NCBI GenBank assembly: GCA_020629315.1
Contig: JAHDDO010000023.1
Location: 1-63,916 of the forward strand
Reading direction: 5' to 3'
Source: Saprospiraceae bacterium
Lineage (GTDB): Bacteria > Bacteroidota > Bacteroidia > Chitinophagales > Saprospiraceae
Length of the DNA stretch: 63,916 bases
Within the stretch, counting starts at the first letter, position 1; the number at the start of each line of letters is the position of its first letter. Positions 18,230 through 43,567 of the stretch are shown here, piece by piece. The notes beneath the pieces are model-generated. The model did not search any database and had not been told where the DNA came from. It worked only from the letters and a program-made list of their open reading frames with translations. Made by a program: the position numbers and the translations under genes.

Positions 18230-18247
18230 TAAGAAAAAACCTTGGAT

Positions 18248-18279
18248 TTTCAATGGTCATACTTTAATGGCCATTGAAA
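18248..18279. terminator. Bidirectional hairpin between convergent genes
   Basis: TTTCAATGG (18248-18256) pairs with CCATTGAAA (18271-18279) around a 14-nt loop. It sits between the stop of the TonB receptor gene and the end of the HupE-like gene and covers the latter's stop codon. A role as a terminator for both is likely. Confidence 0.5.
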
Positions 18280-18944: not shown

Positions 18945-18965
18945 ATACTATATATAAGTTTAAAG

Positions 18966-19733
18966 TCATTTGAAGCTTTCTTTAATTGCCAAACTAGCAT
19001 CTAAGAAATGTAATTTTTTAATATGCTTTTGCATTGTTACTGCTGCACTATAGTCTTTTTTTATTGGAATTCGTATCGAAGACAAACTATCTAATAAACT
19101 AGGTTTCCAGGCAACGGAAGAAATACAATTTTGATAAGGCTTATCTGTAAAAGCCATAGTAAACGAATCCAAAGGCAGTTGTAGCCCAAGACCCTCTTCT
19201 TTAATAAATGACTCCTTTAGGCTCCAGAAGTGATAAAATACTTTTTGCTTGTCTTGCTTAGAAGCTTGTCTTAAATATCGTTGCTCTTCTAATGAAAATA
19301 CAGATTGAGCAATATCATCAAATTCAATATTTGGATGCCACTTTTCTACATCAACACCTAATTCATAGTTATGGCCTAAACCGATTAAAATCAGATCTCC
19401 AGAATGCGAAATATTAAACTGGATATTAGTAGAATTATTGATGAAAAATGGCTTGCCATAGGCATTATAATCAAATTGGATTTGACTAGCATCAATGGCG
19501 GTTAGATCGGACAAAACATGCTTTGTGAAGTATCGACTAATAGCAAAGGAAATTCTATCTTTTTTAAATCTGAACTGTTGGCATCGCTTAGCCTCTTCAT
19601 CATTTAAAGAAGGAATAAGACAAGGATTCGATAGTGTTGGTTTTATATACTCAAGGTCTATTTTTAGCAGATAAACTTCATCTGCTTGAATGCTTTCGAT
19701 TGGCTGATATGTAATCCATGGATTATGATTCAT
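18966..19733 (-). CDS. 4'-phosphopantetheinyl transferase, Sfp type
   Basis: This 255-residue protein has the Sfp motifs in order: YGKPFF, FNISHSGDLI, GVDVEKWHPN (Mg-binding Asp and Glu), and FWSLKESFIKEEGLGL near residue 165. It moves phosphopantetheine from CoA to the conserved Ser of carrier proteins. Its 5' end overlaps the 3' end of the 2273-residue NRPS gene by 11 bp, so it is translationally coupled to it. The obvious targets are the four carrier domains of this locus: the stand-alone PCP, one in the 1358-residue NRPS and two in the 2273-residue NRPS. Confidence 0.93.
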   Translation of the reverse strand: MNHNPWITYQPIESIQADEVYLLKIDLEYIKPTLSNPCLIPSLNDEEAKRCQQFRFKKDRISFAISRYFTKHVLSDLTAIDASQIQFDYNAYGKPFFINNSTNIQFNISHSGDLILIGLGHNYELGVDVEKWHPNIEFDDIAQSVFSLEEQRYLRQASKQDKQKVFYHFWSLKESFIKEEGLGLQLPLDSFTMAFTDKPYQNCISSVAWKPSLLDSLSSIRIPIKKDYSAAVTMQKHIKKLHFLDASLAIKESFK

Positions 19734-25700: not shown

Positions 25701-26544
25701 GACTTAGAAAATAGACAAAAGGTGTAATTTTTTGTTGCTTACAAAAGACTAACACAGAATGTCCTTGCGACAATTTTCTTGTTGCATATTTTCCAATTTT
25801 ACTAGGTTTGCTTGATGGTGTTTCAGTATAAGGGAGTGTAGTTTTTTCTATAGGTTCTGTGAGCTTCTTCGTCCAATATGCTAAGGATTCAGTCTTATTT
25901 TGTTTTTCTTTTTGTTTACTAACATAGCTTGAAAATTGTGCTTTCAGCGGTGAAATGGGAGTTGAACTTTCTTTAGTTAGATATTTGTATTGCTCTGATA
26001 TTTCCTTTCTGAAAATACGCATAGACCATTTATCACTGATGATGTGATGTATATTGATTATAACAAGAAAATCATCAAGGGCCATTTTGCAAATACAGGC
26101 TATCAATAAGGGGCCAGTTTCTAGATTGAACGCACGTTGTGAAATGTCTTTGGCTAGTTCATGCGCCTTGTTTTCTTTATTTATATCTATGCTTAAATCA
26201 TGGATTTCATATGTCCATTTGAAGCTTGAACTGGTGTCGCAAATTATTTGATCATCTGACAGCGTAAACCTAGCACGTAAAATATCTTGCCTTTCCCCAA
26301 CCTTGTTTATGGCTTCAATAAATACGCTTTCATCAAGAGGGCCATTGAACCGCCATAACTCAACCAAATTATAAGTCTGTATTTCAGGATCTAGCTTTTG
26401 TATAAAGAATAGCCTTTGCTGCCCTTCTGAAGCACTGAATGTTTGAGCAAACGATTGATTATTCGATTGTTCTTCAGTTTGATCCTTTTTTCGAGCTGCC
26501 CACTGGTCTAGGATTGATTTTGACTTATCCTTGGAAAGACTCAT
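19723..26544 (-). CDS. Nonribosomal peptide synthetase C-A-PCP-E-C-PCP-TE
   Basis: This 2273-residue protein has readable domains. Condensation 38-470 has HHIISD at 166-171. Adenylation 485-965 has TSGSTGKPNG, NEYGPTE, YKTGD and PNGKID. Carrier 1 has Ser1015 in GGDS. Epimerisation 1063-1500 has HHLIMD at 1182-1187 and the NIERHGRD and SIGWHTNYFPV motifs. A second condensation domain at 1505-1935 has HHINLDGWS. Carrier 2 has Ser1982 in GGTS. The thioesterase at 2035-2273 has the probable triad Cys2112 (LGTCFS), Asp2136 and His2248. By alignment to PheA I read the A-domain pocket as D-S-A-L-I-A-E-V-W plus the A10 Lys, for which I recall no firm substrate. The second C-PCP module has no A domain. 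It likely acts after the 1358-residue NRPS and releases the product. Confidence 0.95.
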   Translation of the reverse strand: MSLSKDKSKSILDQWAARKKDQTEEQSNNQSFAQTFSASEGQQRLFFIQKLDPEIQTYNLVELWRFNGPLDESVFIEAINKVGERQDILRARFTLSDDQIICDTSSSFKWTYEIHDLSIDINKENKAHELAKDISQRAFNLETGPLLIACICKMALDDFLVIINIHHIISDKWSMRIFRKEISEQYKYLTKESSTPISPLKAQFSSYVSKQKEKQNKTESLAYWTKKLTEPIEKTTLPYTETPSSKPSKIGKYATRKLSQGHSVLVFCKQQKITPFVYFLSLFKILISKYTQQTDLIIGTPISTRFNADFEQIIGFFNDTLLLRNTVNQHKTAIQFFQEVNVTTLEAFEHKDIGFHNIITKLNPDRAEQNPLFQMMFLFHKKVVEEPFSKNLHLSVQNFDMGVSKFDFTLYIEESEHNFEATIEYATDRYDESYVLRFLGHLDTLSSQVLTHPESAINQLHYLTEQEQSTIIELGKGNPLAISKNQLIIDLINEHNHSSDIALQDEKRAISYADLAIRSNRIANTILELGCKKATVGIFLGQSIDFVASMIGVLKAGCTYVPLDISYPKKHIQHAIEAANISYLIYESETKISNVNNVTRVYLNELSTNSKDPNVFIHPNDPAYIIFTSGSTGKPNGVVITHENLLVSTKARFAYYDTHPSAFLLCSSFSFDSSVAGIYWTLVNGGKLVIAPKKAIQDVETVSAYINREAISHTLLIPSLYKVYLDHIPGEILSQLKVVILAGEALPVSLANKHLKCLPTVRLYNEYGPTEASVWISAYEITGECELEKIPIGKSIINNQLFILDEYLQLVPRGIAGELYIAGESVALGYLSQTESNSRKFINAKIKGEEYRLYKTGDWVQWDNNNNLLFLGRRDHQIKVRGYRIELDEVDHIIQNYKAGIQSKTIYKSNSKQLLSFICSDKEEDISAIKEHVCNHLPKQYWPDNYRQLSSFPLMPNGKIDIKALEDNIGIEPNEIKVQGPNNESAKILLNIWRDILQNPSLSTQDNFFASGGDSIQIIRVIAKARKEGLMLSVNDIYQHQTIDKLFANSLEFKPDEVVQNIIWDYVPLSPIQSWFFEHHQSAPDHWHLGIEITLGISIGKEEGKQIVKKLVDAYEILNTKIERFYNRYFIKRTQFDIDHFIHFDPSSPVDYTTISITEGPLIRFYFFTKDEKFHKIQIVAHHLIMDAVSWHLLIQHLDSLLSNPKRQLIKKKFEYYNWVHHLQRLASTNVFDLSVPYWASLSEVSSSYFAGKTKAVEKTTQTITTALDKATSTTLRMQALHVADIKIHELIICAFLRSFNTISQESECIINIERHGRDIEFIDISESIGWHTNYFPVHFTVSPDDTLLNSLINVKDQLRAVPDSGLSYGVLKYLSNKLPDHISSYVTINHLGDSFDISSENIAEVTVLTDGMRAANANRDTLIEINSIINKGQLEINMRFDSIQFDKEEMTACLMTMQSQLEALSMDLEGSSKYYSPSDFNFLFTEKDIDILTKSQSISEDILSINTLTATQNAFLFHHVNDSEKDQGLITAFANIEGALDLATLRVAWQKTVQKYDALRSYYVWENVSTPAQITLSKVKSSLRYLGNEESQRNGKNVEEWLAEQKSQFRLDKGPTHNILCVQKNKQSYTIVFLCHHINLDGWSTSILLNELISAYRSICTNSSFSMETMSLSDWSNAYSKEAKKTSLNLYWHKEMKALQPCILKSEITPRQAHFESISESLDINISANLRTFAQQKQISLTSIFAGVWSYLLTKYTDRDAIFGITFSGRSLLVPNIDKAVGMFSNVLPFVTKKEVANKLNFTAISKKLTELLSNDAVSIDDIENTSLQHVSALYNTLLVVENFFLSDKKASPYVASFSSDLISLMPLCVVFIPDDTVKIQLRYESQLFSKDEIHKIMKDITCTLSQLLENEDALGLSYQPFYSNEQQGEHKSQVISHKIEHSSIMYEGTLEQKLLQIWSAYLPTQTLSITDDFFDVGGTSLIAVRIFNALHKQANINASPILLLKNRTVEKLASALNTENASKSWQSVYPLKEAGKYPPLFCFHSGDGHIMFYNDLASNMNVDRPVYGIQPMGLDGKDINFDSIEDMANFYITEIKKQFPKGPYHVLGTCFSNAVTFEIAKKLKHEIGEVFIIDSPPPYYNELSKLSKWMHWLITFNIPKLWEAFSSLFKYVGFRKPQDKQAAHLFNTAKHLRKIMSNYSWLPQDVQVTLIRSSQNDTDPYKAYHFINWQKLSKKGLQIRTISGEHTSIFEGDSALEMAQVVHELMAKNES

Positions 26545-26551
26545 CTGCCCA

Positions 26552-27817
26552 TTATTTCAAACCAATAATTTTAAATACTTTATTTATAGCCTTACTTATG
26601 TAGTCGTCCAATAAGAAATTTACATCAAAGAAACGCTCTACAAACCAATACAAGGAAGCGACTATTAAGAAAATGGAACCGTATATTAAAATTGGTTTAT
26701 AAATAGGTTTTTTCCTGAGAAAGAAGAGGATTGGAAAAATGGCACACACGATAAGCACTTGACCTATTTCAACACCTATATTAAATCCAAATAAAGAGAT
26801 TGCTAAATATTCTCCTTCAATCCCTTTTTCACCAAGCACACTAGCGAAGCCCATCCCATGGAATAGGCCAAATAAGAAAGTAATGATTCCCTCACTTTTA
26901 CTGAAAAGTGGATATATATTATGAAAAGCAGCTAATCCTATAGATAAAGCGATAATGGACTCCACAATGCGGCTTTCTAACTGGATGTAACCTAGGGCTG
27001 CAAGGCTTAATGTAATACTGTGAGCAATGGTGAATAGCGTAACTATTTTAAGAATATACCAAAGCGCTGATGAAAAGGTTTCTACAGGCTTAATATCTAA
27101 ACGATCAGCACGATTTCGCTTTAGTATAACGGCAGGCAGTATCAAAGCTAATAAGAAAAAGATGTGATCAATACCAATATAAATATGCCACATACCAAGC
27201 TTAACCAATGCGACAAAACCTTGCCACATGGATGAGTCAGTCAAAGAAAGAACTTGAGAAGTATTATTAGGCGAGAAAATTAATGAGCTCATAGACTCAT
27301 TATTTATAATTCCCGCCTTCCAGTTATGGGCTATTATAGTTAGTCCTCTATGAATGTCATTTTTGTCAAAAAGTACATTATAATCAATGCTTAAATTATC
27401 AGGTACTTCTGTAATAGGATTCAGCTTAAAGTGGTACATAATATACACAGACTTGGTCAATCGTAAGATTTCCAAATCGGTGAACTGCATTTGTAAGGCT
27501 TGGTTACCATTTTTAATTTGAATCCTTGAAAGCAGATACTCTTTTAATTGAGGAGCGTACTGTTGCCATTCTTGGGGTAAATTTTCTTTTATAATTTCTT
27601 CATCTTGCAGTTTGAAATATGGGCTTGGATCTATCGTTGTACCTAAAGCCTCATTAATATCTTTTGTAGTCATTTCTACCGTCCCACCTATCTTATCTTG
27701 ATATATCTTAAAGTATAAATAACTTTGGTCGGGTTGATGCGCAAAAACATTCGACAAAATAAATAATAACGCAATTGCTATACTGCTACTTCGCTTAATC
27801 ATCTTTTTCCAATTCAT
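26552..27817 (-). CDS. HupE/UreJ-family membrane protein with N-terminal periplasmic domain
   Basis: The 421-residue protein has a signal peptide (ending near VFAHQPDQ) and an N-terminal soluble domain to about residue 205. About seven membrane segments follow, with the HupE/UreJ motifs MWHIYIGIDHIFFLLALILP, FTIAHSITLSLAALG, FGLFHGMGFASVLG and FNIGVEIGQVLIV. The family includes predicted Ni/Co transport proteins. It is sandwiched between the exporter gene (12 bp upstream) and the NRPS gene (7 bp downstream), so it must be transcribed with the biosynthetic genes. This placement is the best sequence-based hint that the peptide product is tied to metal supply. Confidence 0.87.
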   Translation of the reverse strand: MNWKKMIKRSSSIAIALLFILSNVFAHQPDQSYLYFKIYQDKIGGTVEMTTKDINEALGTTIDPSPYFKLQDEEIIKENLPQEWQQYAPQLKEYLLSRIQIKNGNQALQMQFTDLEILRLTKSVYIMYHFKLNPITEVPDNLSIDYNVLFDKNDIHRGLTIIAHNWKAGIINNESMSSLIFSPNNTSQVLSLTDSSMWQGFVALVKLGMWHIYIGIDHIFFLLALILPAVILKRNRADRLDIKPVETFSSALWYILKIVTLFTIAHSITLSLAALGYIQLESRIVESIIALSIGLAAFHNIYPLFSKSEGIITFLFGLFHGMGFASVLGEKGIEGEYLAISLFGFNIGVEIGQVLIVCAIFPILFFLRKKPIYKPILIYGSIFLIVASLYWFVERFFDVNFLLDDYISKAINKVFKIIGLK

Positions 27818-27829: not shown

Positions 27830-29608
27830 TTATAAGGTGCCCGCTAACACCATCTCTCTAAATAAATCGTTGTCACTTATAATCTGATCAAAGCTTCCTG
27901 AGCCTGTTATTTTACCATTTTCTAAAAAGTAAATAACATCACAGTCTTGCACACTTTTCAATCGATGTGCTACTTTGATAATCGTAAGGTTAGGAAACCC
28001 TTCTCTTACGTTTTCCAATAATTGTCGTTCTGAAATATAGTCTAACGCGCTGGTTGACTCGTCCAATATAAGAATTTCAGGGTTACGATACAGCGCCCTT
28101 ACGAAACCAATTTTTTGTTTTTGACCGCCACTGATTTTCACACCAAGCTCTCCAACTTGTGTTTGAAGACCTTTTGGTAGCTGATCAATGAAGTCTTTAA
28201 CTTGAAGTCTATTGCAGACATTTTCCAGCCAATCAAAATCTATGTCATTATCATGGTCTTCAAAAGTTATATTTCTAAGAATAGTATCGTCAAAGAAAAA
28301 TACATCTTGTGGAATAAATGAAATTAAATTTTGAAAGGCTGGGATTGTTTGCTTATCAAGTAACACATTATCTACTTTTATTTCGCCTTCATCTGTCTGT
28401 AATAATCCGCAGATTATTTCTACCAGCGTGGTTTTGCCAGATCCTGAATATCCAACGATTCCAATTTTTTGCCCTTTTTTAATGGACAAAGAAATATCAG
28501 TCAAGATAGGTTCGCTCTTAATATGTCCAAAACTAAGTTTATTAATGTGTATAGCCTCATTGAAATTTAATGTTTCATCAGTTGCCGCGAGACTAAACGC
28601 CTCTTGATTCTGCATGCCTTTAATAACAGCTTGTAACGAAGGATAATTAAATCGAATGGTTATAACAGCATTTATTATGTTTTGGAAGGTAGGCAATAAT
28701 TTAAATCCAACTAAAACATAGAAGGCTAATGTAGGTAATACATTATTCACATCCTTACCATAAAATGCCATAAGAGCAATCAATAATACAACCCCACCGA
28801 AAAGAAGAATATCCATTGCATACTTAGGGACTGAATTGAGTGTGTTTACAAAAGGCTTTATAGTACTATAGTCCTTCGAAACTTTGAAGAACTTATCTAA
28901 AAAGAATAGTTCTTTAGCGTTAGACTTTACAGTTTTAATTCCAATCACAGACTCTTTAAGCTGTAAAAATCTTGATCGCTCTAAATGCAAACGTCTCTGC
29001 CCTAATCGTTTAAGCTTATTTTTTAAAATAGTAATTAAGCCTAAACCAATTAAAACGCCAACTGTGAAAAGTATGAAACTAACGCTTGGGTGAAGTATGG
29101 TGATCAAGCTAAGAAACAAAATAGCTACAAAGCCATTAGATATAATTTGTGCAATAGGCAGTAAAACACCTCTTACTGTGGCAGAAGTTTCTACAATCAA
29201 ATCTGTTATGATTTCAGCTGAATTTTTCTCTATAAAAAATGAAAAAGGACGAGACAGGATATTTCTATGTTGTTTCGTACTTAATCGATGTGAAAGATCC
29301 CACACAAACTTTTGCTCTTTCCAAGCAAGGAATAATTTCAATATTGAAGAAAGTAAAATTAGTAGGAAAATCACTAGCCCCCCTAAAATAAGTAGCTGAT
29401 TGTGTGATGCTTTTAAAATAGATTCAGGTAATAATTGCGATAAACTATTTATCGAATAGCTACCTTCTGCAAAACGAATAAATGGAAGTACAAGTGCGAT
29501 TCCTGCAAATTCGAGCAAGGAAATAAGGATCATTTGTATGACTAAAAGCAAGAATCGATTTTTCTCCTTTTTCCCAAGTAAGTTGTTAATATTCCTAGTA
29601 GCCAGCAA
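27830..29608 (-). CDS. ABC exporter, fused permease and ATPase
   Basis: This 592-residue half-transporter has an N-terminal six-helix membrane domain (about 15-320) and a C-terminal ATPase. The ATPase has Walker A GYSGSGKTT, Q-loop FIPQDVFFF, signature ISGGQKQKIGFVRAL, Walker B LILDEST and H-loop VAHRL, all intact. The start is a TTG directly after in-frame stops; no upstream ATG exists, and the resulting N-terminus (NNLLGKKEKNRFLLLVI) suits this family. It is the first gene of the left operon. Export of the NRPS product or an intermediate is the likely role. Confidence 0.93.
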   Translation of the reverse strand: MLATRNINNLLGKKEKNRFLLLVIQMILISLLEFAGIALVLPFIRFAEGSYSINSLSQLLPESILKASHNQLLILGGLVIFLLILLSSILKLFLAWKEQKFVWDLSHRLSTKQHRNILSRPFSFFIEKNSAEIITDLIVETSATVRGVLLPIAQIISNGFVAILFLSLITILHPSVSFILFTVGVLIGLGLITILKNKLKRLGQRRLHLERSRFLQLKESVIGIKTVKSNAKELFFLDKFFKVSKDYSTIKPFVNTLNSVPKYAMDILLFGGVVLLIALMAFYGKDVNNVLPTLAFYVLVGFKLLPTFQNIINAVITIRFNYPSLQAVIKGMQNQEAFSLAATDETLNFNEAIHINKLSFGHIKSEPILTDISLSIKKGQKIGIVGYSGSGKTTLVEIICGLLQTDEGEIKVDNVLLDKQTIPAFQNLISFIPQDVFFFDDTILRNITFEDHDNDIDFDWLENVCNRLQVKDFIDQLPKGLQTQVGELGVKISGGQKQKIGFVRALYRNPEILILDESTSALDYISERQLLENVREGFPNLTIIKVAHRLKSVQDCDVIYFLENGKITGSGSFDQIISDNDLFREMVLAGTL

Positions 29609-29723: not shown

Positions 29724-30875
29724 ATGGATTTCAATATTCCTGAGGAATATACCGCCTTTCGATCCAGTATAATCAAATTTGTTAATGAAGAGCTACAAAC
29801 AAACAGTAGTCAAAATGATTATGAGGGCAATTTCTACAAAGAGGGATGGAATAAGTGCGGTAATCAAGGCATCTTAGGTTTAGCTAGTGAGGCAAAATAC
29901 GGAGGTACACACTCGAAAATTGATGTACTTAGGTCTTGTATCGGTATGGAAGGTTTTGGTTATGCATGCGATGATGTAGGTTTAGGACTAGCTATAAATG
30001 CACATTTGTGGACAGTGCAAATGACCATTTCCAAATTTGCTAATGCCAAACAAAAAGAAAAGTTTTTACCAAAGATGTGCACTGGAGAATGGATTGGCTG
30101 TCATGGACTCAGTGAAGATGATTCTGGATCAGATGTCTTTAGTATGAAGACTGTAGCTGAGAAAGTAGATGGAGGATTTGTCTTGAATGGACACAAGCGA
30201 CTGGTTACTCTAGGGCCGGTATGTGATATAGCCTTAATTTTTGCTTCAACCAATCCAACTGTTGGCAAGTGGGGAATAAGCGCTTTTTTAGTTGAATCAT
30301 CTTTTAAAGGCTTTGAACGTAAACCAGTTCAGCATAAAATGGGATTGCGGACTGTACCTATAGGAAGGCTGCATTTTGATAATTGTTTTGTTCCTGAAGA
30401 AAATGTGCTAGGTGCTATAGGTGCAGGCTGGAGTATTTCTACATATTCTCTTGAATATGATCGCTGTTGCATGCTCTCAGCAAAATTAGGTTCTATGGAA
30501 AAGCAATTGGAAAAAACTATAGATTACGCTAAGAATAGAAAACAATTCACTAAAAACATTGGATCTTTTCAGGCTGTTTCTCATCGAATTGCTGATATGA
30601 AATCAAGATTAGAAATAGCAAAGCTGCTCTTGTATAAAAATGCATGGATGAAGGATAATGACATACCTGGTATGTTAGATAGTGCCATTTTAAAGCTCTT
30701 TTTAAGTGAAAGCTATGTTGCGTCTAGCATGGATGCGATTCGAGTGCATGGAGGTAATGGATATTTAACCGAGCATGGTATAGAAAGAGGCTTGCGCGAT
30801 GCAATGGGTAGCGTTATCTATGCAGGGACATCGGATATTCAAAAAAACATAATAGCTAGTCATTTAGGCCTTTAA
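29724..30875 (+). CDS. Acyl-CoA-dehydrogenase-like flavoprotein, probable aminoacyl (prolyl)-PCP dehydrogenase
   Basis: The 383-residue protein has the acyl-CoA dehydrogenase fold throughout (CHGLSEDDSGSD, HKMGLRTVPIGRLHFDN, AKNRKQFTKNIGSFQAV, IRVHGGNGYLTEHGIERGLR, YAGTSDIQKN). The usual catalytic Glu of the YEGT motif is Ala here (YAGT). Instead Glu244 in SLEYDR occupies the alternative base position used by isovaleryl-CoA dehydrogenase and, as I recall, by prolyl-carrier-protein oxidases of the PigA/RedW/PltE type. Those enzymes oxidise prolyl-PCP to pyrrole-2-carboxyl-PCP. The gene heads an operon with a stand-alone A enzyme and PCP, the partners such an oxidase needs. Substrate is inferred, not shown. 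Confidence 0.85.
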   Translation: MDFNIPEEYTAFRSSIIKFVNEELQTNSSQNDYEGNFYKEGWNKCGNQGILGLASEAKYGGTHSKIDVLRSCIGMEGFGYACDDVGLGLAINAHLWTVQMTISKFANAKQKEKFLPKMCTGEWIGCHGLSEDDSGSDVFSMKTVAEKVDGGFVLNGHKRLVTLGPVCDIALIFASTNPTVGKWGISAFLVESSFKGFERKPVQHKMGLRTVPIGRLHFDNCFVPEENVLGAIGAGWSISTYSLEYDRCCMLSAKLGSMEKQLEKTIDYAKNRKQFTKNIGSFQAVSHRIADMKSRLEIAKLLLYKNAWMKDNDIPGMLDSAILKLFLSESYVASSMDAIRVHGGNGYLTEHGIERGLRDAMGSVIYAGTSDIQKNIIASHLGL

Positions 30876-30879
30876 TAAT

Positions 30880-31719
30880 ATGAAACAAGTACTCTTGAGA
30901 AAGGCTAAAAAAATAATTAATTCTGCTAGGAATAAACTTTTACATTCCTGGGGGTATATCCAAAATAGTAAGCGTCAAACGCCTAATTTTTTAATCGTGG
31001 GCACGCAGAAAGGTGGAACCTCTTCCTTATTTTTTTATTTAAAGTTCCATCCTGAAATAATCAGACCTATAAAAAAGGAAATTCATTTTTTTAATATACA
31101 CTATGGAAAGGGCTTAGCTTGGTATAAAGCACATTTTCCATTGCGCTCTAAAAACCATATTACAGGAGAAGCGTCACCAGACTATATGTTTCATCCTGAA
31201 ACGCCTCAACGGGTTAAAGACTTAAATCCGGAAATGAAAATTATCTTCTTGCTTAGGAACCCAATTGATCGAGCTTATTCTGCATACCAAATGAATAGAC
31301 GCATGAAGATAGATCCGCGTGAATCGTTTGAAGAAGCCATCGATTTTGAATTGTCGAATAGAGATAGCATTGGAAATCAATATAATTATGAACGGCATAA
31401 TTATTTTTATTTAGAAAGAGGCTTGTATGGTAGACAACTAAATAATTGGTTGTTGACCTTTACTAAAGATCAGATTTTAGTTATTAAGAGTGAAGACTTT
31501 TTCCAGAAAACAGAAACTGAACTAAAAAGAGTATACAGATTCCTTAATATTGATAGTGTTTTACCAAACCGTCTTACGCCAATGAATGTGGGAAAATATC
31601 CACCCCTTTCAGAAAATGTATATAATACATTGGTTGATTTTTATAAAGAAGATTTGTCTTTGGTTAGGACGCATTTTGACATAGATTTTGACTTGCATGA
31701 AAAGAATTTTGACGGATAA
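30880..31719 (+). CDS. PAPS-dependent sulfotransferase
   Basis: This 279-residue protein has the 5'-phosphosulfate loop VGTQKGGTSSL near residue 40, the 3'-phosphate-binding segment FLLRNPIDRAYSAYQMNRRM near residue 120, and ERGLYGRQLNNWL further on. It resembles the heparan-sulfate/NodH branch of bacterial sulfotransferases. It would move sulfate from PAPS to a hydroxyl or amine of the peptide or of a sugar on it. It lies 4 bp after the flavoprotein gene and overlaps the next gene by 23 bp, so it belongs to the biosynthetic operon. Confidence 0.9.
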   Translation: MKQVLLRKAKKIINSARNKLLHSWGYIQNSKRQTPNFLIVGTQKGGTSSLFFYLKFHPEIIRPIKKEIHFFNIHYGKGLAWYKAHFPLRSKNHITGEASPDYMFHPETPQRVKDLNPEMKIIFLLRNPIDRAYSAYQMNRRMKIDPRESFEEAIDFELSNRDSIGNQYNYERHNYFYLERGLYGRQLNNWLLTFTKDQILVIKSEDFFQKTETELKRVYRFLNIDSVLPNRLTPMNVGKYPPLSENVYNTLVDFYKEDLSLVRTHFDIDFDLHEKNFDG

Positions 31720-33229
31720 TTTAATCCGTTCTACTGATAAATTTCCTGATAGAATTGCGTTTAAGCAATTAAATAAAAGTATTACATATGGCTCATTGCT
31801 TACCTCGTCGGCTCAGCTCGCGAACGTACTTTTAGAATGCGGTGCACGAAAAGGGGATCGGATTGGGATTTTTATGAACAGAACTTTTGAAAGTGCTATA
31901 GCTGTCTATGGTGCTTTACTAGCAGGCGCAGCTTTCGTCCCTATAGATACTAATTTACCACCTCAGCGTGTTAAGCAATTACTAGATGATTGTAATATTG
32001 ACATTTTAATTTCTAGCCCCACGTTTCAAAAAAAGATAGTTTCCTTAGTAGAGGAACAGCCTCCATTACATACAATCATTGGTGCAAAGGAACTCTTTAC
32101 CCAATCTATAAAACACATTAGTTGGGAAAGTGTGTGGACAGCAAGTAGTAAGTTACCAACTATACAATGCAATGAAAGCGATCTTGCATACATAATATAT
32201 ACATCTGGAACCACAGGAAAATCTAAGGGCATTGTGCATACGCATTTCAGTGGGGCAAGCTATGCAAAGTTGTCCGCTGAACTTTATGAAATTACGCATG
32301 AAGATATATTAGGAAATCACTCCCATCTACATTATGATATATCAACCATGGGATATCTAACAATGCCCTATGTAGGTGGCTGCACGTACATAGTGCCTGA
32401 AGCCTACACTATTTTTCCGGTTAATTTGGCAAAACTATTAGCGAATGAAAAATTAACTATTTGGTATTCAGTTCCATTAGCTTTAATACAACTAATAAAT
32501 GTAGGAGATCTAGAGAATAAAGATTTGGATCATTTGCGTTGGGTATTATTTGGGGGAGAATCTTTTTCGCCTGATTATATGAAAAAACTAATGAAGCTCT
32601 TGCCAAATGCCATGTTTAGCAATGTGTATGGTCCGGCTGAAGTAAACCAATGTACTTACTTTAATTTTTCAGCGAATGAGGTAATTTCAAATCCAATACC
32701 TTTAGGGCAAGCTTGGCCAGAGACTATCGTGAAATTGGTGAAAGAACATCCGGAAGATGAGATTGGCGAACTATATGTTTCTTCTTCCACACAGATGCAT
32801 TCTTACTGGAATAAACCTGAAAAAACAAAAGAAGGATTTATCACAATGGAACATACGGATGGAGAGAAGTATAGATTTTATAAAACTGGTGATAAATCAA
32901 AATATGACAATCATGGTAATTTGATATTTCTAGGTAGACAAGATAGGCAGACTAAGTTAAGAGGTTATAGAATTGAACTTGATGAATTAGAATACATTAT
33001 AGTTAAAGAAGCAAGTGTGAAGGATGCAGCCGTTTATATAAAAAAAGAAGAGGAAGAACCATTCTTGTGTGCATCAATTGTTGTGGATCCATCAAGTTTT
33101 TCCTTGACCACTTTTAAAAAACATATAGCGAAACATTTACCAAGCCATGCCATTCCCAGAACAATTAAAATAGTTGAAAAATTGCCTAGAACAAGTGCAG
33201 GTAAAGTTAATTATAAAGCTTTTATATGA
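31697..33229 (+). CDS. Stand-alone amino acid adenylation enzyme, prolyl-AMP ligase type
   Basis: I prefer the ATG at 31697 (510 residues) over an in-frame TTG at 31688. Adenylation motifs are complete: YIIYTSGTTGKSKG (A3), NVYGPAEVNQCTYF (A5), YKTGDKSKYD (A7), DRQTKLRGYRIELDE (A8) and a terminal TSAGKVN (A10 Lys). No carrier domain is fused. The region IWYSVPLALIQL...GPAEVNQCTYF looks much like PltF/RedM-type enzymes that load proline on a separate carrier. Pocket residues by PheA alignment read D-I-M-Y-L-G-V-Q-C. It sits between the sulfotransferase and PCP genes, overlapping both. Proline or a related cyclic amino acid is the likely substrate; D-alanine-ligase-like activity is the main alternative. 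Confidence 0.9.
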   Translation: MKRILTDNLIRSTDKFPDRIAFKQLNKSITYGSLLTSSAQLANVLLECGARKGDRIGIFMNRTFESAIAVYGALLAGAAFVPIDTNLPPQRVKQLLDDCNIDILISSPTFQKKIVSLVEEQPPLHTIIGAKELFTQSIKHISWESVWTASSKLPTIQCNESDLAYIIYTSGTTGKSKGIVHTHFSGASYAKLSAELYEITHEDILGNHSHLHYDISTMGYLTMPYVGGCTYIVPEAYTIFPVNLAKLLANEKLTIWYSVPLALIQLINVGDLENKDLDHLRWVLFGGESFSPDYMKKLMKLLPNAMFSNVYGPAEVNQCTYFNFSANEVISNPIPLGQAWPETIVKLVKEHPEDEIGELYVSSSTQMHSYWNKPEKTKEGFITMEHTDGEKYRFYKTGDKSKYDNHGNLIFLGRQDRQTKLRGYRIELDELEYIIVKEASVKDAAVYIKKEEEEPFLCASIVVDPSSFSLTTFKKHIAKHLPSHAIPRTIKIVEKLPRTSAGKVNYKAFI

Positions 33230-33474
33230 TGAGTATAGGAAACGAGATAATTACGATTTTAAGAGAGGAAATTTTAGAGGATGAAACCTTTGCCATTGAA
33301 ATGGAAGAGGACTTGTTAACGTCAAGCACACTTGATTCGATGGCCTTAATTCGAATGGTTGCCGCAATTGAAAAGAAGTATGAAATTAAGATTCCGCCAA
33401 CTGATTTGGTCATTGAAAATTTTCTTAATATATCAGCAATCGAATCGTATATTAACTCTCGTCTGAAAGAATAA
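33226..33474 (+). CDS. Stand-alone peptidyl carrier protein
   Basis: This 82-residue acidic four-helix protein has a phosphopantetheine site in SSTLDSMALIRMVAAIE (Ser near residue 38), the DSM/DSL pattern of carrier proteins. The start codon overlaps the stop of the adenylation gene (ATGA), and its own stop directly abuts the ATG of the 1358-residue NRPS. The tight coupling to the A enzyme and to the flavoprotein two genes before it indicates a carrier on which the starter amino acid is loaded and oxidised before transfer to the first condensation domain. Confidence 0.93.
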   Translation: MMSIGNEIITILREEILEDETFAIEMEEDLLTSSTLDSMALIRMVAAIEKKYEIKIPPTDLVIENFLNISAIESYINSRLKE

Positions 33475-36400
33475 ATGGCGCAAGATCAATATATATTACC
33501 TCTTACTGAATTCCAATATTCTATTTGGAAAGGTCAAAAGTTAAGACCCGAAGATCCATTATATAATATGGCATTCACCTTTGATATCTTCGGTGATATT
33601 AATGTAGATATATTTAAAGAAGCTTTTGAGCAATTAGCGAGTATAAGTACCAATTTACAGCTTGTAGTGGATGAGACAGAGCCTGAAAATCCGTGTCAGA
33701 AGTTTGTCCACATGCCTCCGCAATTGGTGTTTTTGGATTTAACGAACCATCCTAATTTTAATATTGAACAATGGCTAAATGAAAAGAATACTTTGCTCTT
33801 TAATTTACAGGAGCGATCATATTATTCAGCGATCATAAAAAAAAGTGAAAAGCATTTTATATGGTATCTAAATCAACATCACATTTTTACAGATGCCTAT
33901 TGCTTCCAACTTCTCTTTAATCGATTGGTAAGTATTTATAAATCCAAGATAGAGGGTCAAGCCATTGAACTGAGCCTAGATTTTGAAGATTATGCTGAGA
34001 GCTGTATTAAGAAGTCAAGAAAACTTGCCCCTGTTAAAAGTGACCATTCTGCAGTTTTCCCTACTAATTACAGTATATACGGTGAGGTTTTTAAAAATCC
34101 AAATACCTCGCGTTCTAAACGAATAGAATGGGTACTGCCAACTAACAAACTGGAAGAAATAAAGGCTGCATTACATTCTCTTGGCTTACGAACACTCTCC
34201 TTGAATTTGGATATACTTAGCTACTTAATAAGTACCCTCTTGATTACAATAAAAAAGGTGGGTGTTGAGGACGATACTATTGATATATCGAACATATTTT
34301 CTGAACGAGTAAGCAAAAAAAGTAAGACACTCATTAAACCCCTGTTACGCATTTTGCATGGGAAAATCGATTTTAGTACTTCAACCACATTCGTAAGCTT
34401 GTATAAACAAGTGTATGCATTTTTAATTATGCGCGAGGGGTCAAGTACTACAGAAGCAAACGTTTTGCCCGCTAGTATAATAAACTTTTTCAATCTCGAA
34501 ATAGCGTCTTTTTTAGACTACAAAACCGAATATAAATGGCACCATTGTCATCATATGGATGCACATCATTTTTTGAGATGTCATATTTTTAGATATACCA
34601 AAGATGCCCCTTTTACATTAGCTTTTGATTTGAAAGACATCCAATTTCAAGATAAAATCCTTGCAAAATTACAAAAGCATTATATGCAAGTGATTGACCA
34701 TTTTTTGCTTGAAAAAAATCAACATTCAATCGAAAATCTGTGCCTTCTTAGTCTGCAAGAAAGAGAGGTGTTAAATGATCAAATAGAAGCAGCATCAACG
34801 ATAAAAACTAAAGAAGAGGACCTGTTTATTAATGCTTTTTTGCGTCAAGTGCAGCTAAGCCCTGATGCCATAGCACTCCGCTGCGCATCGGATCAAATAA
34901 GCTATGCGCAGCTCTACGAACGGGCTAAAAACATAGCTATAGAAATACAAAAAATAAAATCGGAAGAACAAATTCGCGTAGCCATTCATTTAGAAAGATC
35001 ATTAGATTTTGTCTACAGCGTTATAGCTTGTTTACTAAGTGGTGCGAGCTTTACCCCTATTCCTATCTCATTGCCGAAACAAAGAAAGAGCTATATGATA
35101 AAAGATATAGCTGCCCATCTGGTATTTTCTAATACTCCTATAGATAACATTGACCTACCAACACACACAGTGGCTAAGGCTTTAGAAAATCCATCTCACA
35201 CCGATTTCGTTGCTCAAGCAGGTGACGTGTTTTATACCTTATATACCTCCGGGTCTACTGGAAAACCAAAAGGCGTGGTAGTTACTCAACAATCGTTTAC
35301 TAGTTATTTAGAAGCGATAAAAGACAAATACTTGCTTCCAGGAAGCTCTTATCACATGCCACTCTTTACAGCGACAGGTTTTGACTTAACGATGACCTCA
35401 TTATTCTTGCCACTTTACACAGGAGGATCTATTAAAATATTTGAAGAAAAAGAAGGACTGGACCTTTCTATACAAGAAGTAATTCAAGACAAGGATATAA
35501 ATTGCCTAAAATGCACCCCTTCTCACCTTAAATTGGTGGCCGGCCTTACTGTTAGCCCTAGTATATCATCCATATTGGTTGGTGGCGAGAATTTTACTCG
35601 AGCAACAGCAATGAACCTGACAAAGGACGCAAATCACGAAATACAAATTTTTAATGAATATGGTCCAACAGAAGCTACAGTAGGCTGCATCGTTCATCCG
35701 TTTAATCGAGATACCTATATTCAAGATAGCAATGTGCCTATTGGTACCTGTTTGTCAAATAGTCACGCTGTAATTGTGGATGCCTTTGATAATCCATTAC
35801 CCCAAGGTGTCATAGGTGAACTCTGTATTGTAGGGGCAGGTTTGGCAAAGCGGTATCAAAACGATGTAGCATTAACCAAGAAAAAATTCCTTGACGCGAA
35901 TCTTCATTTTAAAGGTCGATACTATAAAACAGGGGATTTTGCTCGACGTAATTTCAATGGTGATTTTGAATATTTTGGCCGGAGAGATGATCAGATAAAA
36001 GTGCAAGGAGTCAGGATTGAAAAAGCAGAAATTGAAACGGTAATATCCAAAGTAGATTCAATTAAACAATGTGTAGTTGCTGTAAAAAAGAAAAAAGACC
36101 TGACAACGAGTGATTATATCCATTGTAAAAGTTGTGGATTGCCGTCAAACTATCCAAGCGCAGATTTTGATGATACTAATGTTTGCTCTTATTGCCGGAA
36201 TTACGAAACATATAAGACTAAAGTTGAAAAGTACTTTGAAAGTGAAGCGACCTTTGAACAGATTTTTGAAACTACAAAACCACATGAAGGAACTTATGAT
36301 TGTATCATGCTTTATAGTGGAGGTAAAGACAGCAGCTATGCCTTAGGAAAGCTGATAGAGAAAGGCTATAGAGTGCTCGCTTTTACCTTAGATAATGGAT

Positions 36401-37551
36401 ATATCTCAGCGGAGGCCAAAGCAAACATTAATAGGATTGTATCTCGGCTGGGGGTGGATCACATGTATGGCGAAACAGAAGCCATGAATGAAATTTTTGT
36501 TGACAGTCTACAAACGCATTGCAATGTATGCAATGGTTGTTTTAAAACTATTTATAACCTCAGCCTTAAAATAGCTTACCAGCAAAAAATACCTATCATA
36601 GTTACAGGCTTGTCTCGTGGACAGTTTTTTGAGACTAAATTGTCTGAAGAGATATTTTGGAAACCAATGGAGAATGTGGAAGAGATAGATAGGATACTAT
36701 TCGAGGCACGAGAAGCGTATCATGGAGTAAAAGATGCTGTTTATAAATTAACTGATGGTAAATTTATTGAGGAACATAATGTGTTACAGAAAGTCAAAAT
36801 TGTTGATTTTTATCGTTACCATGATGTCACCTTAGAACAGCTTCTACACTATATCAGTACTAAACTTCCTTGGGTTCGACCAGAAGATACAGGTCGATCA
36901 ACCAACTGTTTAATAAATAAAGCAGGCATTTATATACATAAACAACAAAAAGGCTTTAGTAATTATGCCTTTCCATACAGTTGGGATGTACGGACAGGAC
37001 ACAAAACAATGGAAGAAACTGTTGATGAAATAGAAGAGTATATTGACCCAAAAGAGGTATTGCAAATATTAGATGAAATTGGTTTCGCTAATGAAGAAGC
37101 AACGGACCAGCTAGTACTTTTTTACACTGGACAAAAAACAGATGATCAACTACTCCGGGACTATTGTAACACGGATTTACCTAACTATATGATTCCATCT
37201 AAATTTATTCATATTGACGAGATCCCACTAACTCAAAATGGAAAAGTAGATCTGAAAAAATTACTTGCTGATGAAGCAGCTATTTCAAAAGAGATTATAA
37301 AACCTGCGAATGCCTTAGAAGAAATTCTTGTATCTATTTGGGCAGAAGTGATGAAGCTGCAAACTATAAGTACGGATGATGATTTTTTCCATCTAGGTGG
37401 CACGTCATTAGAAGCGATTCGTATGGTAGCAAGGATCGAGAATGAAATTGATTACAAATTACCCGTAAATTATATTTTTCAATATACGAGTATTCAAAGT
37501 TTGGCAAGTTATATTCTTGAAGACATGCAAGCTCAACTTTCAGCAGAATAA
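33475..37551 (+). CDS. NRPS C-A-PCP with a PP-loop ATPase inserted in the A domain
   Basis: The protein has 1358 residues. Condensation 8-430 has HHIFTD at 135-140. The adenylation core 450-850 has YTSGSTGKPKG (590-600), NEYGPTE (727-733), YKTGD (817-821) and DQIKVQGVRIE (839-849). The A domain resumes at about 1210 and ends with NGKVD (1255-1259). Carrier Ser1311 lies in LGGTS. Between A8 and A10, residues about 878-1208 are a different enzyme: a zinc-ribbon-like C884/C887...C904/C907, a PP-loop YSGGKDSS at 947-954, and a C1016-x2-C1019-x2-C1022 cluster. The start resembles sugar amidotransferases (WbpG/PseA type); the rest is generic PP-loop pyrophosphatase. The pocket code reads D-L-T-K-L-G-E-V-G-K, the known Asn code. 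It probably adds Asn after the starter and modifies it. Confidence 0.93.
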   Translation: MAQDQYILPLTEFQYSIWKGQKLRPEDPLYNMAFTFDIFGDINVDIFKEAFEQLASISTNLQLVVDETEPENPCQKFVHMPPQLVFLDLTNHPNFNIEQWLNEKNTLLFNLQERSYYSAIIKKSEKHFIWYLNQHHIFTDAYCFQLLFNRLVSIYKSKIEGQAIELSLDFEDYAESCIKKSRKLAPVKSDHSAVFPTNYSIYGEVFKNPNTSRSKRIEWVLPTNKLEEIKAALHSLGLRTLSLNLDILSYLISTLLITIKKVGVEDDTIDISNIFSERVSKKSKTLIKPLLRILHGKIDFSTSTTFVSLYKQVYAFLIMREGSSTTEANVLPASIINFFNLEIASFLDYKTEYKWHHCHHMDAHHFLRCHIFRYTKDAPFTLAFDLKDIQFQDKILAKLQKHYMQVIDHFLLEKNQHSIENLCLLSLQEREVLNDQIEAASTIKTKEEDLFINAFLRQVQLSPDAIALRCASDQISYAQLYERAKNIAIEIQKIKSEEQIRVAIHLERSLDFVYSVIACLLSGASFTPIPISLPKQRKSYMIKDIAAHLVFSNTPIDNIDLPTHTVAKALENPSHTDFVAQAGDVFYTLYTSGSTGKPKGVVVTQQSFTSYLEAIKDKYLLPGSSYHMPLFTATGFDLTMTSLFLPLYTGGSIKIFEEKEGLDLSIQEVIQDKDINCLKCTPSHLKLVAGLTVSPSISSILVGGENFTRATAMNLTKDANHEIQIFNEYGPTEATVGCIVHPFNRDTYIQDSNVPIGTCLSNSHAVIVDAFDNPLPQGVIGELCIVGAGLAKRYQNDVALTKKKFLDANLHFKGRYYKTGDFARRNFNGDFEYFGRRDDQIKVQGVRIEKAEIETVISKVDSIKQCVVAVKKKKDLTTSDYIHCKSCGLPSNYPSADFDDTNVCSYCRNYETYKTKVEKYFESEATFEQIFETTKPHEGTYDCIMLYSGGKDSSYALGKLIEKGYRVLAFTLDNGYISAEAKANINRIVSRLGVDHMYGETEAMNEIFVDSLQTHCNVCNGCFKTIYNLSLKIAYQQKIPIIVTGLSRGQFFETKLSEEIFWKPMENVEEIDRILFEAREAYHGVKDAVYKLTDGKFIEEHNVLQKVKIVDFYRYHDVTLEQLLHYISTKLPWVRPEDTGRSTNCLINKAGIYIHKQQKGFSNYAFPYSWDVRTGHKTMEETVDEIEEYIDPKEVLQILDEIGFANEEATDQLVLFYTGQKTDDQLLRDYCNTDLPNYMIPSKFIHIDEIPLTQNGKVDLKKLLADEAAISKEIIKPANALEEILVSIWAEVMKLQTISTDDDFFHLGGTSLEAIRMVARIENEIDYKLPVNYIFQYTSIQSLASYILEDMQAQLSAE
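36106..37098 (+). other. PP-loop ATP-pyrophosphatase domain embedded in the adenylation domain
   Basis: This stretch codes for residues about 878-1208 of the NRPS gene. It has a paired CxxC zinc-ribbon-like region, then a Rossmann-like PP-loop core with SGGKDSS, then HCNVCNGC and a later Cys1145 in RSTNCLINKAG. PP-loop enzymes activate a carbonyl oxygen or base by AMP transfer, and a nucleophile (ammonia or sulfide) then enters. The inserted block falls at a known tolerant site of A domains, where methyltransferase and other auxiliary domains have been found in other NRPSs. Confidence 0.85.
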
Positions 37552-37566: not shown

Positions 37567-38877
37567 GTGGCTAAAATTGTAATTATTCATAGTGGCTTAA
37601 GAGGTATGTCCAATGCTTGTTTGGCTATGGCAGACCAATTAACAAAAGCTGGACATACAATATATTTAGGTTCGCCAGGAAATAAGGGATATACTTCTAC
37701 ACACCCTTTTTTAATGGTTCCTCTTCCAGAAATTCCGCTGAATTATAAAAGGCCATTTCTGGAAAAAATTAAAGGCTTGTTGCATAGAAGCCGATTGTTT
37801 GAATCCCAACTAGCCTCATTAGAGTTAGTGACACTTAAAAAATGGCTTGCTAGTAATGAAGTGGATCTAGTATTAATTGATCAAGAAATGCACGAATTTA
37901 TTTTGGCACTTGATTCATTTTCACAGCCATTTATTCTAATAAGTCAATGGTTTTCTACCTGGCAAACAAAAGGGAATTTGCCGCCTAACTCAAAAAAGAA
38001 ACCGCATTACAATAGATTGGATAAGCTAGCATGGTTAAGATCTAAGTGGATTCGCAAGATTACATATGCTGGACAATTTGCTAAGCAGTTTGGCCATACT
38101 CGACGTGCGTTTTTATACTATATGAGTAAGGCCTTGCACTTTGATCCAAGCCGTTTTCTTTCGTTTCAATTTCCAATGCCCTTCTCATATCAAAATGTAC
38201 CCATTTTATTAACTACGCACCCAGATCTGGAATTTACAACATGTCCATTACCCATGGTAAAATATGCTTTTCCAATGGTCCTTGAAGAAAGGGAGAGTTA
38301 TACTGATGCACACTTTGATGAGCCATTTAAAAAGATACTGCGAGCAAAAGTTGAGTCGAATAAAAAATTAATTTGTGTAACTAAAACATCTATGAAGGGA
38401 GGCGATGTGAAGGCTTTAATTACATTAATTAAAGCCTTGTCGTCTAATGAAAATTGGATAAGTATTTTGGGGGTAGGGGATGCATATGATCAATGTTACA
38501 ATAGAGAAGAAAACCCCTTTGATAACGTTTATATTTTTAAGTCTATTCCTCAGCTGCAAGTACTAAAACATGCAGATCTTTCCATAAATCATGGCGGTAT
38601 CCATACCATTAATGAATGTATTCATTTTGCAGTCCCCATGCTGATAATCAGTGGAAATAAATTTGATCAGAATGGTTGTGCCGCCAGAGTCCATTACCAT
38701 GGATGTGGAGTCAGCCTGTTTACGAAGCAAATAAAAACAGAAGAGATAAAAAAGACCATAGAACAAGTACTGCTAAGCAAAGAATGTAAAAACAAGATTG
38801 CAATGCTTTCTAGAACATATCACGAAGCAAAAGAACGAAATCACCTAGCCTCGATCATTGAAGAGGCACTCCAATGA
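37567..38877 (+). CDS. GT1-type glycosyltransferase
   Basis: This 436-residue protein starts at GTG, 15 bp after the NRPS stop. The N-terminus AKIVIIHSGLRGMSNACLAM is a Rossmann acceptor-binding half. The donor-binding half carries DLSINHGGIHTINECIHFAV and PMLIISGNKFDQNGCAARV, the GT1 signature with the HGG motif. Such enzymes put a sugar from a nucleotide donor on small molecules, and some glycosylate antibiotics to protect the producer. As the last gene of the right operon it probably decorates the peptide. Donor and acceptor are unknown. Confidence 0.86.
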   Translation: MAKIVIIHSGLRGMSNACLAMADQLTKAGHTIYLGSPGNKGYTSTHPFLMVPLPEIPLNYKRPFLEKIKGLLHRSRLFESQLASLELVTLKKWLASNEVDLVLIDQEMHEFILALDSFSQPFILISQWFSTWQTKGNLPPNSKKKPHYNRLDKLAWLRSKWIRKITYAGQFAKQFGHTRRAFLYYMSKALHFDPSRFLSFQFPMPFSYQNVPILLTTHPDLEFTTCPLPMVKYAFPMVLEERESYTDAHFDEPFKKILRAKVESNKKLICVTKTSMKGGDVKALITLIKALSSNENWISILGVGDAYDQCYNREENPFDNVYIFKSIPQLQVLKHADLSINHGGIHTINECIHFAVPMLIISGNKFDQNGCAARVHYHGCGVSLFTKQIKTEEIKKTIEQVLLSKECKNKIAMLSRTYHEAKERNHLASIIEEALQ

Positions 38878-42490: not shown

Positions 42491-43567
42491 TTACTTCTTG
42501 TTGGTTATAGGCTTGACTAAAAAGGAATACGGATTCTTTTCTTCAAGAAGCGTGTTTTCTAATTGTAAATGCATACCTATTCCCAAGCGATTCGCATGTG
42601 AAATAAAAAGATCAGCAACAACCTGGTCTTCAAGCGCCATACCTGTGCTGTCAAATACTGTTTTTTCGCTTTTTAAGTCTTTGTGTGAACTAGCATTTTT
42701 AATAAGAGTAAAGATGTCGTCACCTATTTGCTCTTCTGCAAGCTGTTGACACTCTCCCTCGATGATAGCTTGACCTAATAAATCAGGGCAGACAAAACTA
42801 TCTACCAAAAGCTGTTTTGGCAACTCTGTTTTTCCTGCAAAGTCGGATCCTACAGCATTGATGTGTAACCAAGATTTAGATGTGAGCCCTTGAAAAAGTG
42901 GCCCTTCGCCAATGCCAATCGAAGTGGCTGTACAAAGTATGTCTGAATGGCGCACAATATCTTCTATAGTGCTTGATATAAATTCTATTTCAGTTCCCGT
43001 GAAAGCTGCTCGTGACTTAAAGGAATCTTGAGTCGGACTGTCAATATCGTAATATAAAACTTTGGTTATTTCGAACACCCGACGCAAAGCATGTAATTGC
43101 GTAATGGACTGTGCTCCACAACCAATTAGCCCGATCACCTTACTTTGTTCATGTGCTAATAATTTACTAGCTATAGCAGAGGCGGCGCCAGTGCGCAAGG
43201 CCGTTGGTAAAACCCCATCCATAAGAGCTAGCAAATGACCAGTTCGGGTGTCATATTTGCTAATATTCGAAATTATCGTGGGTAGCTGTTGTTCTTTTGG
43301 ATTTGATGGATGGTAGCCCACCATTTTAAAACTCACCTCCTCAGCTTCGATATCTCGTAATGGCATCCATTCAATAAGCCCTTCATTAGGCGACAAATAA
43401 TTAAATCCAGATCGAATGGGAATTATGGTGTTTTCAGATGAAAAACCTAAAATAGCAGAATACAAATTCTCAATTAATTCATCCATGATTACATGAAGAC
43501 CTACAGCTTCTATTATTTCTTGAATATCTGCCGCAGTTAGTACTAATGAACTATGATCCTTTTTCAT
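42491..43567 (-). CDS. Ornithine cyclodeaminase / mu-crystallin family protein
   Basis: This 358-residue protein has the family pattern: SFKMVGYHP with the substrate-binding Lys, DGVLPTALRTGAASAIASK, the NAD-binding GLIGCGAQSITQLHAL and AVGSDFAGKTELP with the catalytic Asp. Members turn ornithine into proline or lysine into pipecolate, reduce imines, or make diaminopropionate precursors (SbnB type). No SbnA-like partner is present. Because the neighbouring locus has a stand-alone A enzyme and oxidase of the prolyl type, supply of proline is attractive, but the gene is separate from both NRPS operons and the link is only inferred. Confidence 0.85.
   Translation of the reverse strand: MKKDHSSLVLTAADIQEIIEAVGLHVIMDELIENLYSAILGFSSENTIIPIRSGFNYLSPNEGLIEWMPLRDIEAEEVSFKMVGYHPSNPKEQQLPTIISNISKYDTRTGHLLALMDGVLPTALRTGAASAIASKLLAHEQSKVIGLIGCGAQSITQLHALRRVFEITKVLYYDIDSPTQDSFKSRAAFTGTEIEFISSTIEDIVRHSDILCTATSIGIGEGPLFQGLTSKSWLHINAVGSDFAGKTELPKQLLVDSFVCPDLLGQAIIEGECQQLAEEQIGDDIFTLIKNASSHKDLKSEKTVFDSTGMALEDQVVADLFISHANRLGIGMHLQLENTLLEEKNPYSFLVKPITNKK

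Follow-up and report, generated by a model that had tools for sequence, protein, structure and literature searches.

A PP-loop ATPase domain inside an asparagine-type NRPS adenylation domain, a candidate for thioamide formation on the side chain

The adenylation (A) domains of NRPSs can be interrupted by a further enzyme domain, as in TioS, where this is a methyltransferase, and in indigoidine synthesis, where it is an oxidase; in PchE an epimerase is reportedly inserted in the same way. Among PP-loop enzymes, some N-acetyl sugar amidotransferases (NASATs) have a HisH/HisF-type ammonia partner encoded nearby, ArtA/NitB form a nitrile from a side-chain amide, and TtuA, like LarE, is a [4Fe-4S] sulfur insertase. 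The inserts named in the accessible part of one account of interrupted A domains are methyltransferase, monooxygenase, oxidase or reductase domains (PMC8949500), and in the sources at hand none of those in TioS, indigoidine or PchE is a PP-loop ATPase. LarE of T. maritima is described, in the available part of its source, as inserting sulfur and as holding its [4Fe-4S] cluster with the three cysteines of a CXXC-C motif (PMC9283937). The corresponding part of the paper on closthioamide presents CtaC as the first NRP thioamide synthetase to be reconstituted and calls thioamide nonribosomal peptides exceedingly rare (PMC6772006). It forms thioamides on PCP-bound substrate, acting on the backbone amides of the carrier-bound chain, and has an ATP motif at D77/S78 and cysteines C154/C157/C284 (PMC6772006, same part).

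The window is a stretch of 63,916 nucleotides from a Saprospiraceae bacterium, and it encodes a C-A-PCP module of 1358 amino acids (Table 1), in which the Condensation domain occupies residues 6-176 (Pfam). The original prediction placed a PP-loop ATPase inside the A domain, between motifs A8 and A10, and the Pfam and TIGR matches agree with this. The A8 region (RRDDQIKVQGVRIE) and A10 (NGKVD) flank an insert of about 331 residues, and the AMP-binding_C profile is matched only from position 26 onward. Both A subdomains are present with the additional domain nested between core motifs, which is the arrangement of an interrupted A domain. The code reads DLTKLGEVGK, which we take to be of the Asn type, so that the module presumably loads asparagine. 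The same assignment had been predicted, and it extends to the relatives; the Asn-type code is kept in 119/119 aligned insert-bearing proteins among the matches listed, and in all 75 of the more distant insert-bearing proteins with a readable code.

Table 1. Positions of the features in the window; neighbour conservation is counted over 12 distinct loci.
Feature	Position	Strand	Basis
Interrupted NRPS module C-A(PP-loop)-PCP, 1358 aa	33475..37551	+	Single open frame, Pfam
A-domain core, residues 457-868	34843..36078	+	Pfam AMP-binding 457-794, TIGR01733 476-868, code
Embedded PP-loop domain, residues 878-1208	36106..37098	+	TIGR03573 match, structure model, fold match
Ribbon cysteines C884, C887, C904, C907	36124..36195	+	Cys in 119/119
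PP-loop SGGKDS, residues 948-953	36316..36333	+	Conservation in alignments
CxxC, C1019 and C1022, predicted Fe-S ligands	36529..36540	+	168/168, 110/110, aligned with LarE CxxC
C1145, predicted third Fe-S ligand	36907..36909	+	168/168, 110/110
Rest of A subdomain with A10 NGKVD, residues 1210-1257	37102..37245	+	AMP-binding_C PF13193 positions 26-76
PCP, residues 1284-1347	37324..37515	+	Pfam PP-binding
TonB-dependent receptor	16007..18229	+	In 10/12 distinct loci
HupE/UreJ protein, small	18264..18944	-	
4'-phosphopantetheinyl transferase	18966..19733	-	In 6/12 distinct loci
Second NRPS: one A domain, three C-type domains, two PCPs, thioesterase	19723..26544	-	Code DSALIAEVWK
HupE/UreJ protein, large	26552..27817	-	HupE/UreJ group in 12/12 distinct loci
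ABC transporter	27830..29608	-	
Prolyl-carrier dehydrogenase-like protein	29724..30875	+	In 12/12 distinct loci
Sulfotransferase	30880..31719	+	In 5/12 distinct loci
Stand-alone adenylation protein, perhaps for proline	31688..33229	+	PDB matches
Free carrier protein, 82 aa, LDS motif by eye	33226..33474	+	ORF
Glycosyltransferase	37567..38877	+	In 6/12 distinct loci
Ornithine cyclodeaminase family protein	42491..43567	-	In 11/12 distinct loci

The insert is not singular. A database search for other A domains carrying it, proposed with the original prediction, matched 1932 NRPS-sized proteins at E ≤ 1e-3 (120 of them listed, with Zobellia and Leptobacterium among the sources), and the named relatives span many bacterial phyla. 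The same domain recurs across these phyla far beyond chance, and since so many NRPS-sized proteins match it an assembly artefact is rejected. A scan of genome contigs took in two close loci.

The layout of the module, its code, the SGGKDS loop, a Cys ribbon and an invariant CxxC-C triad are all features of the sequence itself. Structure prediction, another of the checks proposed, gave a model of the embedded domain with a pLDDT of 87.8, for which 8wex is the best fold match. The predicted paired-Cys ribbon is present, with its four positions cysteine throughout the 119 aligned proteins (the window's own protein included), and by analogy with 8WEX these residues are a putative zinc site. The predicted PP-loop is equally clear; each of the six SGGKDS positions reaches at least 97% identity in the 119-protein alignment, and all are invariant across a 74-sequence alignment. 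A CxxCxxC motif had also been proposed. Its second and third cysteines, C1019 and C1022, are invariant, but the first, C1016, varies, being cysteine in only 63/168 inserts. An invariant distant cysteine, C1145, was absent from the motifs listed in the original prediction.

The triad C1019/C1022/C1145 is cysteine in all 168 inserts and in a further 110/110, and both sets show the pattern of the [4Fe-4S] sulfur insertases, in which CxxC and then a distant cysteine come after the PP-loop. The 168 inserts were drawn from 240 listed proteins by keeping those with SGGKDS preceded by at least 75 residues and followed by at least 255 (72 were dropped); the count of SGGKDS in this set is circular because the motif was the selection criterion, but the counts of cysteine are not. 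We predict a [4Fe-4S] cluster in the domain. When the insert profile is aligned with that of LarE, CxxC falls on CxxC (a single profile pair, with only four LarE sequences; probability 96, E = 4.7e-9), with C1145 lying on the third LarE cysteine in relaxed or global alignment only, as the default run ends before C1145. A profile search of the PDB pairs the NVCNGC region of the insert with NRCYNC of 8cnz, a [4Fe-4S] LarE (E = 2.4e-8). LarE, TtuA and NcsA act on nucleotides or tRNA and are not built into an NRPS, and the part in common with the insert is the PP-loop part only.

CtaC, compared here from the accessible part of its published description and not by sequence, resembles the insert in having a PP-loop (AANH), three cysteines, an Fe-S cluster of the kind predicted here, and a carrier-bound substrate (PMC6772006). 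The spacing is also similar, with 77 residues from D77 to C154 and 127 from C157 to C284 in CtaC, and 67 (D952-C1019) and 123 (C1022-C1145) in the insert. Unlike the insert, CtaC is free-standing and targets backbone beta-alanine amides.

By whole-domain sequence and by fold, the family nearest to the insert is NASAT/WbuX. The comparison of families bore out the predicted PP-loop kinship, with WbuX nearest, but not membership, as the scores fall below the cut-offs of the TIGR models for WbuX, QueC and LarE. The insert matches positions 3-327 of the 344 of WbuX model TIGR03573 with E = 3.7e-35, scoring 122 bits where the cut-off is 203.2, and reaches 22.3 bits against a cut-off of 150 for the LarE model TIGR00268. 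For QueC it covers 73 of the 210 positions of PF06508 (23.9 bits for the insert alone, 21.6 in the whole protein, cut-off 22), and gives 23.6 bits with TIGR00364 (cut-off 150.3); these matches are weak and confined to the PP-loop region, and QueC membership is rejected.

We propose that the Asn-code module, with its predicted [4Fe-4S] cluster in the A-domain insert, likely converts the side-chain amide of asparagine into a thioamide, probably on the carrier. The A domain would load asparagine onto its own PCP, and the PP-loop domain would then adenylate the oxygen of the side-chain amide using ATP. Sulfide bound at the open iron of the three-Cys cluster would attack the activated amide, and departure of AMP would leave thio-Asn (+16 Da). 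The original prediction left nitrile, amidine and thioamide open. The sequence evidence favours the thioamide, because the CxxC-C triad is that of the [4Fe-4S] sulfur insertases and no HisH/HisF relative was found in the 13 cluster segments searched.

An amidine synthase in the manner of WbpG and the NASATs, which would use ATP to activate the side-chain amide and let in ammonia to form an amidine (-1 Da), is unlikely, even with the NASATs as nearest kin. The profile alignment with the NASATs has an hhalign E of 4.3e-36, and the whole-domain NASAT fold with PP-loop and Cys ribbon is present in the insert; the PP-loop is common to both, and 11 of the 17 canonical NASATs compared have the full ribbon (from 20 loci, of which two were without an ORF and one had a wrong ORF). 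Yet the invariant triad would have no role in forming an amidine, and in the aligned columns it is cysteine in 0/17 of these NASATs. Nor were relatives of HisH or HisF found among 288 ORFs of 13 cluster segments (BLAST, one query each), where the best match was a single one of 40 residues with E = 0.53, whereas both lie beside the canonical NASAT of a Roseovarius plasmid. Plain membership of the NASATs (WbpG, WbuX, 8WEX) is therefore rejected, on the score below cut-off, the additional Cys triad and the lack of a HisH/HisF partner in those 13 segments.

It is rather improbable that sulfur or nitrogen is inserted into another group, such as the amide bond between starter and asparagine after condensation, or that the thioamide is an intermediate that cyclises. 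The action of CtaC on backbone amides, as given in the accessible part of its paper (PMC6772006), would be a parallel, and in Streptomyces an A protein that has no insert and carries another code lies next to a free-standing, diverged version of the domain. Against this, the insert is tightly tied to a single A-domain code in the 119/119 and 75/75 readable cases, which argues for asparagine itself as the target and is suggestive of a nested domain that modifies the residue activated by its host module. Least probable is a nitrile synthase, in which ATP would activate the side-chain amide and elimination of AMP would give beta-cyanoalanine (-18 Da), since this has no call for the invariant triad and the fold match of ArtA to the model ranks level with those of many other PP-loop enzymes. 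ArtA/NitB are free-standing, and no kinship of the insert with them was seen above the general PP-loop level.

Returning to thio-Asn, the neighbours that are conserved hint at a small metal-binding peptide without proving one. The best PDB match of the dehydrogenase-like protein is the prolyl-ACP dehydrogenase 4irn (E = 1.1e-100), with the PigA and RedW models below cut-off. Proline is assigned to the stand-alone adenylation protein mainly because of this neighbour; the prolyl ligase 6o6e_B is among its PDB matches (E = 3.1e-56), though not the best, and stand-alone A codes, gapped in most rows of the code alignment, were given little weight. A pyrroline- or pyrrole-2-carboxyl starter would come from the dehydrogenase acting with the free A protein and the free carrier, and a small peptide would be completed by the second NRPS. 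The receptor is best matched by the TonB-siderophore model (92.8 bits, cut-off 223.5); a copper-specific receptor is rejected, TonB-copper giving only a weak tail match (21.9 against 472.45 bits). No NCBIfam model is matched by the two HupE/UreJ proteins, a family often linked to nickel and cobalt in the part of PMC9973294 available. Tentatively, these loci may make a widespread and so far undescribed class of small NRPS metallophores, combining the pyrroline or pyrrole starter, thio-Asn made in cis by the Fe-S domain and a further residue; such a thioamide would chelate copper or nickel and be taken up through a TonB receptor and a HupE/UreJ permease. In the accessible part of a paper that deals with metallophores (PMC12914433), neither NRPS or nonribosomal nor HupE or UreJ is mentioned.

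The original prediction knew of no NRPS with a PP-loop insertion, and our literature searches, which took in few subscription papers, likewise returned no published description of an NRPS with a PP-loop or NASAT domain inserted. Interrupted A domains and the trans-acting CtaC are already known; their combination was not found in print in the literature searched. If the proposal is true, interrupted A domains would gain a new catalytic type, and the module would provide a tool for installing thioamides at selected side chains. With thioamide formation in cis and 1932 matching NRPS-sized proteins, what has been a rarity would become chemistry that can be mined from genomes.

The interrupted module comprises 1358 residues with the domain arrangement tabulated below. 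The insert lies between the A8 region and A10 of the adenylation (A) domain, and matches the N-acetyl sugar amidotransferase (NASAT) model TIGR03573 (WbuX) with E = 3.7e-35 and 122 bits, below the cut-off of 203.2. Both the position and the kind of the insert are as the original prediction had them. The condensation motif is HHIFTDA, compared with HHxxxDG, the family consensus being HHLITDA; the Pfam match is limited to the first portion of the domain.

Coordinates of the interrupted NRPS module and of other features discussed
Feature	Position	Source
ORF of the module (+)	33475-37551	
Condensation domain and motif, DNA	33475-34002	
Condensation domain	residues 6-176	Pfam
AMP-binding domain	residues 457-794	Pfam
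PP-loop insert	residues 878-1208	
AMP-binding_C, matched from profile position 26 on	residues 1210-1257	Pfam
PCP	residues 1284-1347	Pfam
HupE/UreJ protein, first	18264-18944	
HupE/UreJ protein, second	26552-27817	
474-aa protein	40127-41551	
Diverged PP-loop protein, Streptomyces plasmid	16062-20112	NZ_CP108680.1

PchE reportedly contains an inserted epimerase. Nested domains between a8 and a9 are described for methylation, oxidation and reduction (PMC8949500). The claim that no NRPS with this insertion had been described agrees with the literature searched, where no PP-loop domain within an A domain was found. Interrupted A domains and the free thioamide synthetase CtaC are already known, and the PP-loop domain inside an A domain appears new against that literature. 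CtaC is a free enzyme that thioamidates a carrier-bound substrate, whereas the present domain is built into the A domain.

A search for other A domains with the same insert, as had been proposed, shows that it is recurrent. Searching with the insert among proteins between 0.55 and 1.75 times as long as the whole protein yields 1932 matches at E<=1e-3 (120 listed). Shorter proteins gave 439 matches, the 120 listed including Myxococcota, Chloroflexota, Gemmatimonadales, Actinobacteria and Granulosicoccus. A third search, with an acidimicrobial fragment, gave 693; 110 of the 120 listed are new, and those listed include Microvirga, Mesorhizobium, Leptolyngbya, Verrucomicrobiota and Rhodothermia. 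Within the sampled genomes of its own phylum the insert is sparse, occurring at E<=1e-40, with the window's genome counted, in 2/395 (phylum sample), 1/395 (class) and 11/396 (order).

The ten code residues of the A domain are DLTKLGEVGK, which we take to specify Asn. Among the 120 relatives listed in the main search, less one shorter than 800 aa, the code is D-L-T/S-K-I/V/L-G-E-V/I-G in 119/119, the window's protein included. Nine code residues could be read in 75 of the 110 new third-search proteins, and all 75 have DLTK[IV]GEV[GA]; in the other 35 the region is gapped or the sequence too short, and one fragment among them has G in place of K. Insert and code are strictly paired in different phyla, an argument that the PP-loop domain would act on the residue selected by its host A domain.

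Of the predicted CxxCxxC motif, C1019 and C1022 are invariant and C1016 is variable, and the invariant set extends to the distant C1145. The triad is present in 168/168 inserts from the matches listed, and in all 110 new third-search proteins listed. Canonical NASATs, 20 loci above the family cut-off from 99 genomes, were reduced to 17 by omitting two without an ORF and one with the wrong ORF; none of the 17 has Cys at the three aligned columns, that of C1022 being mostly gaps. Four LarE sequences have CxxC and a later Cys. Profile alignment with the inserts (probability 96, E = 4.7e-9) places CxxC on CxxC, and C1145 pairs with the third LarE Cys under relaxed or global alignment. In a PDB profile search the NVCNGC region aligned with NRCYNC in a [4Fe-4S] LarE, 8cnz. 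The VIA alignment with L. plantarum LarE 5udq stops at residue 274 of the model and residue 180 of the chain; C1145 (model 270) would face C176, the sulfur-donating residue of this LarE, if the alignment is gapless, VIA reporting end points only. The [4Fe-4S] cluster of T. maritima LarE is bound by three such Cys and required for sulfur transfer (PMC9283937), and CtaC, a PCP-dependent thioamide synthetase, has the CxxC-C motif at C154/C157/C284 (PMC6772006). Taken whole, the domain is nearer to the amidine-forming NASATs than to sulfur insertases, which is the strongest evidence against thioamide formation. The chemistry of the insert, its cluster, metal and product are what we infer.

Some NASATs have a HisH/HisF-type ammonia partner nearby. 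BLAST to E = 1 with one HisH and one HisF query found no relatives in 288 ORFs of 13 cluster segments (two of these, L001 and G766, are the same contig, which leaves 12 distinct loci); the sole match covers 40 residues at E = 0.53. On a Roseovarius pelagicus plasmid HisF and HisH are adjacent to a canonical NASAT, and an interrupted NRPS, ~12 kb away, has neither beside it. This contrast speaks against such a partner as support, not proof, since the plasmid's HisF and HisH could still serve the NRPS.

Neighbours were counted over the 12 loci as lower bounds, because some segments end early. A HupE/UreJ protein and a prolyl-carrier-type dehydrogenase (best PDB match 4irn, prolyl-ACP dehydrogenase, E = 1.1e-100) both occur in 12/12. 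At least 11 loci have a member of the ornithine cyclodeaminase family and at least 10 a TonB receptor; glycosyltransferases and phosphopantetheinyl transferases are each present in at least six, and sulfotransferases in at least five. In the window two HupE/UreJ proteins, matching no NCBIfam model, bracket the phosphopantetheinyl transferase and second NRPS genes. The 474-aa protein, close to a GT2 and a DUF354 protein, has no match in Pfam (E<=0.01) or NCBIfam (E<=0.001), and is present in 4/13 segments, all close relatives.

On the Streptomyces plasmid (locus L060) a diverged PP-loop domain of 38% identity, by eye with CxxC and a later Cys, starts a protein with a condensation-like part. It adjoins asnB and an A-PCP protein that has no interruption and, by eye, a code other than that for Asn. 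A free A protein, dehydrogenase, carrier and HupE/UreJ protein recur on Rhodobacterales plasmids. Those of Roseovarius (L059) and Pseudohalocynthiibacter (L061) carry identical protein accessions from NASAT to carrier beside the interrupted NRPS; the L061 record lists no gene over the NRPS stretch. As two marine genera have these accessions in common on plasmids, it seems that plasmids spread the cluster. Where readable, the second NRPS code is DSALIAEVWK or near-identical, which may resemble histidine codes. It is a reasonable guess that the product of the cluster binds metal.
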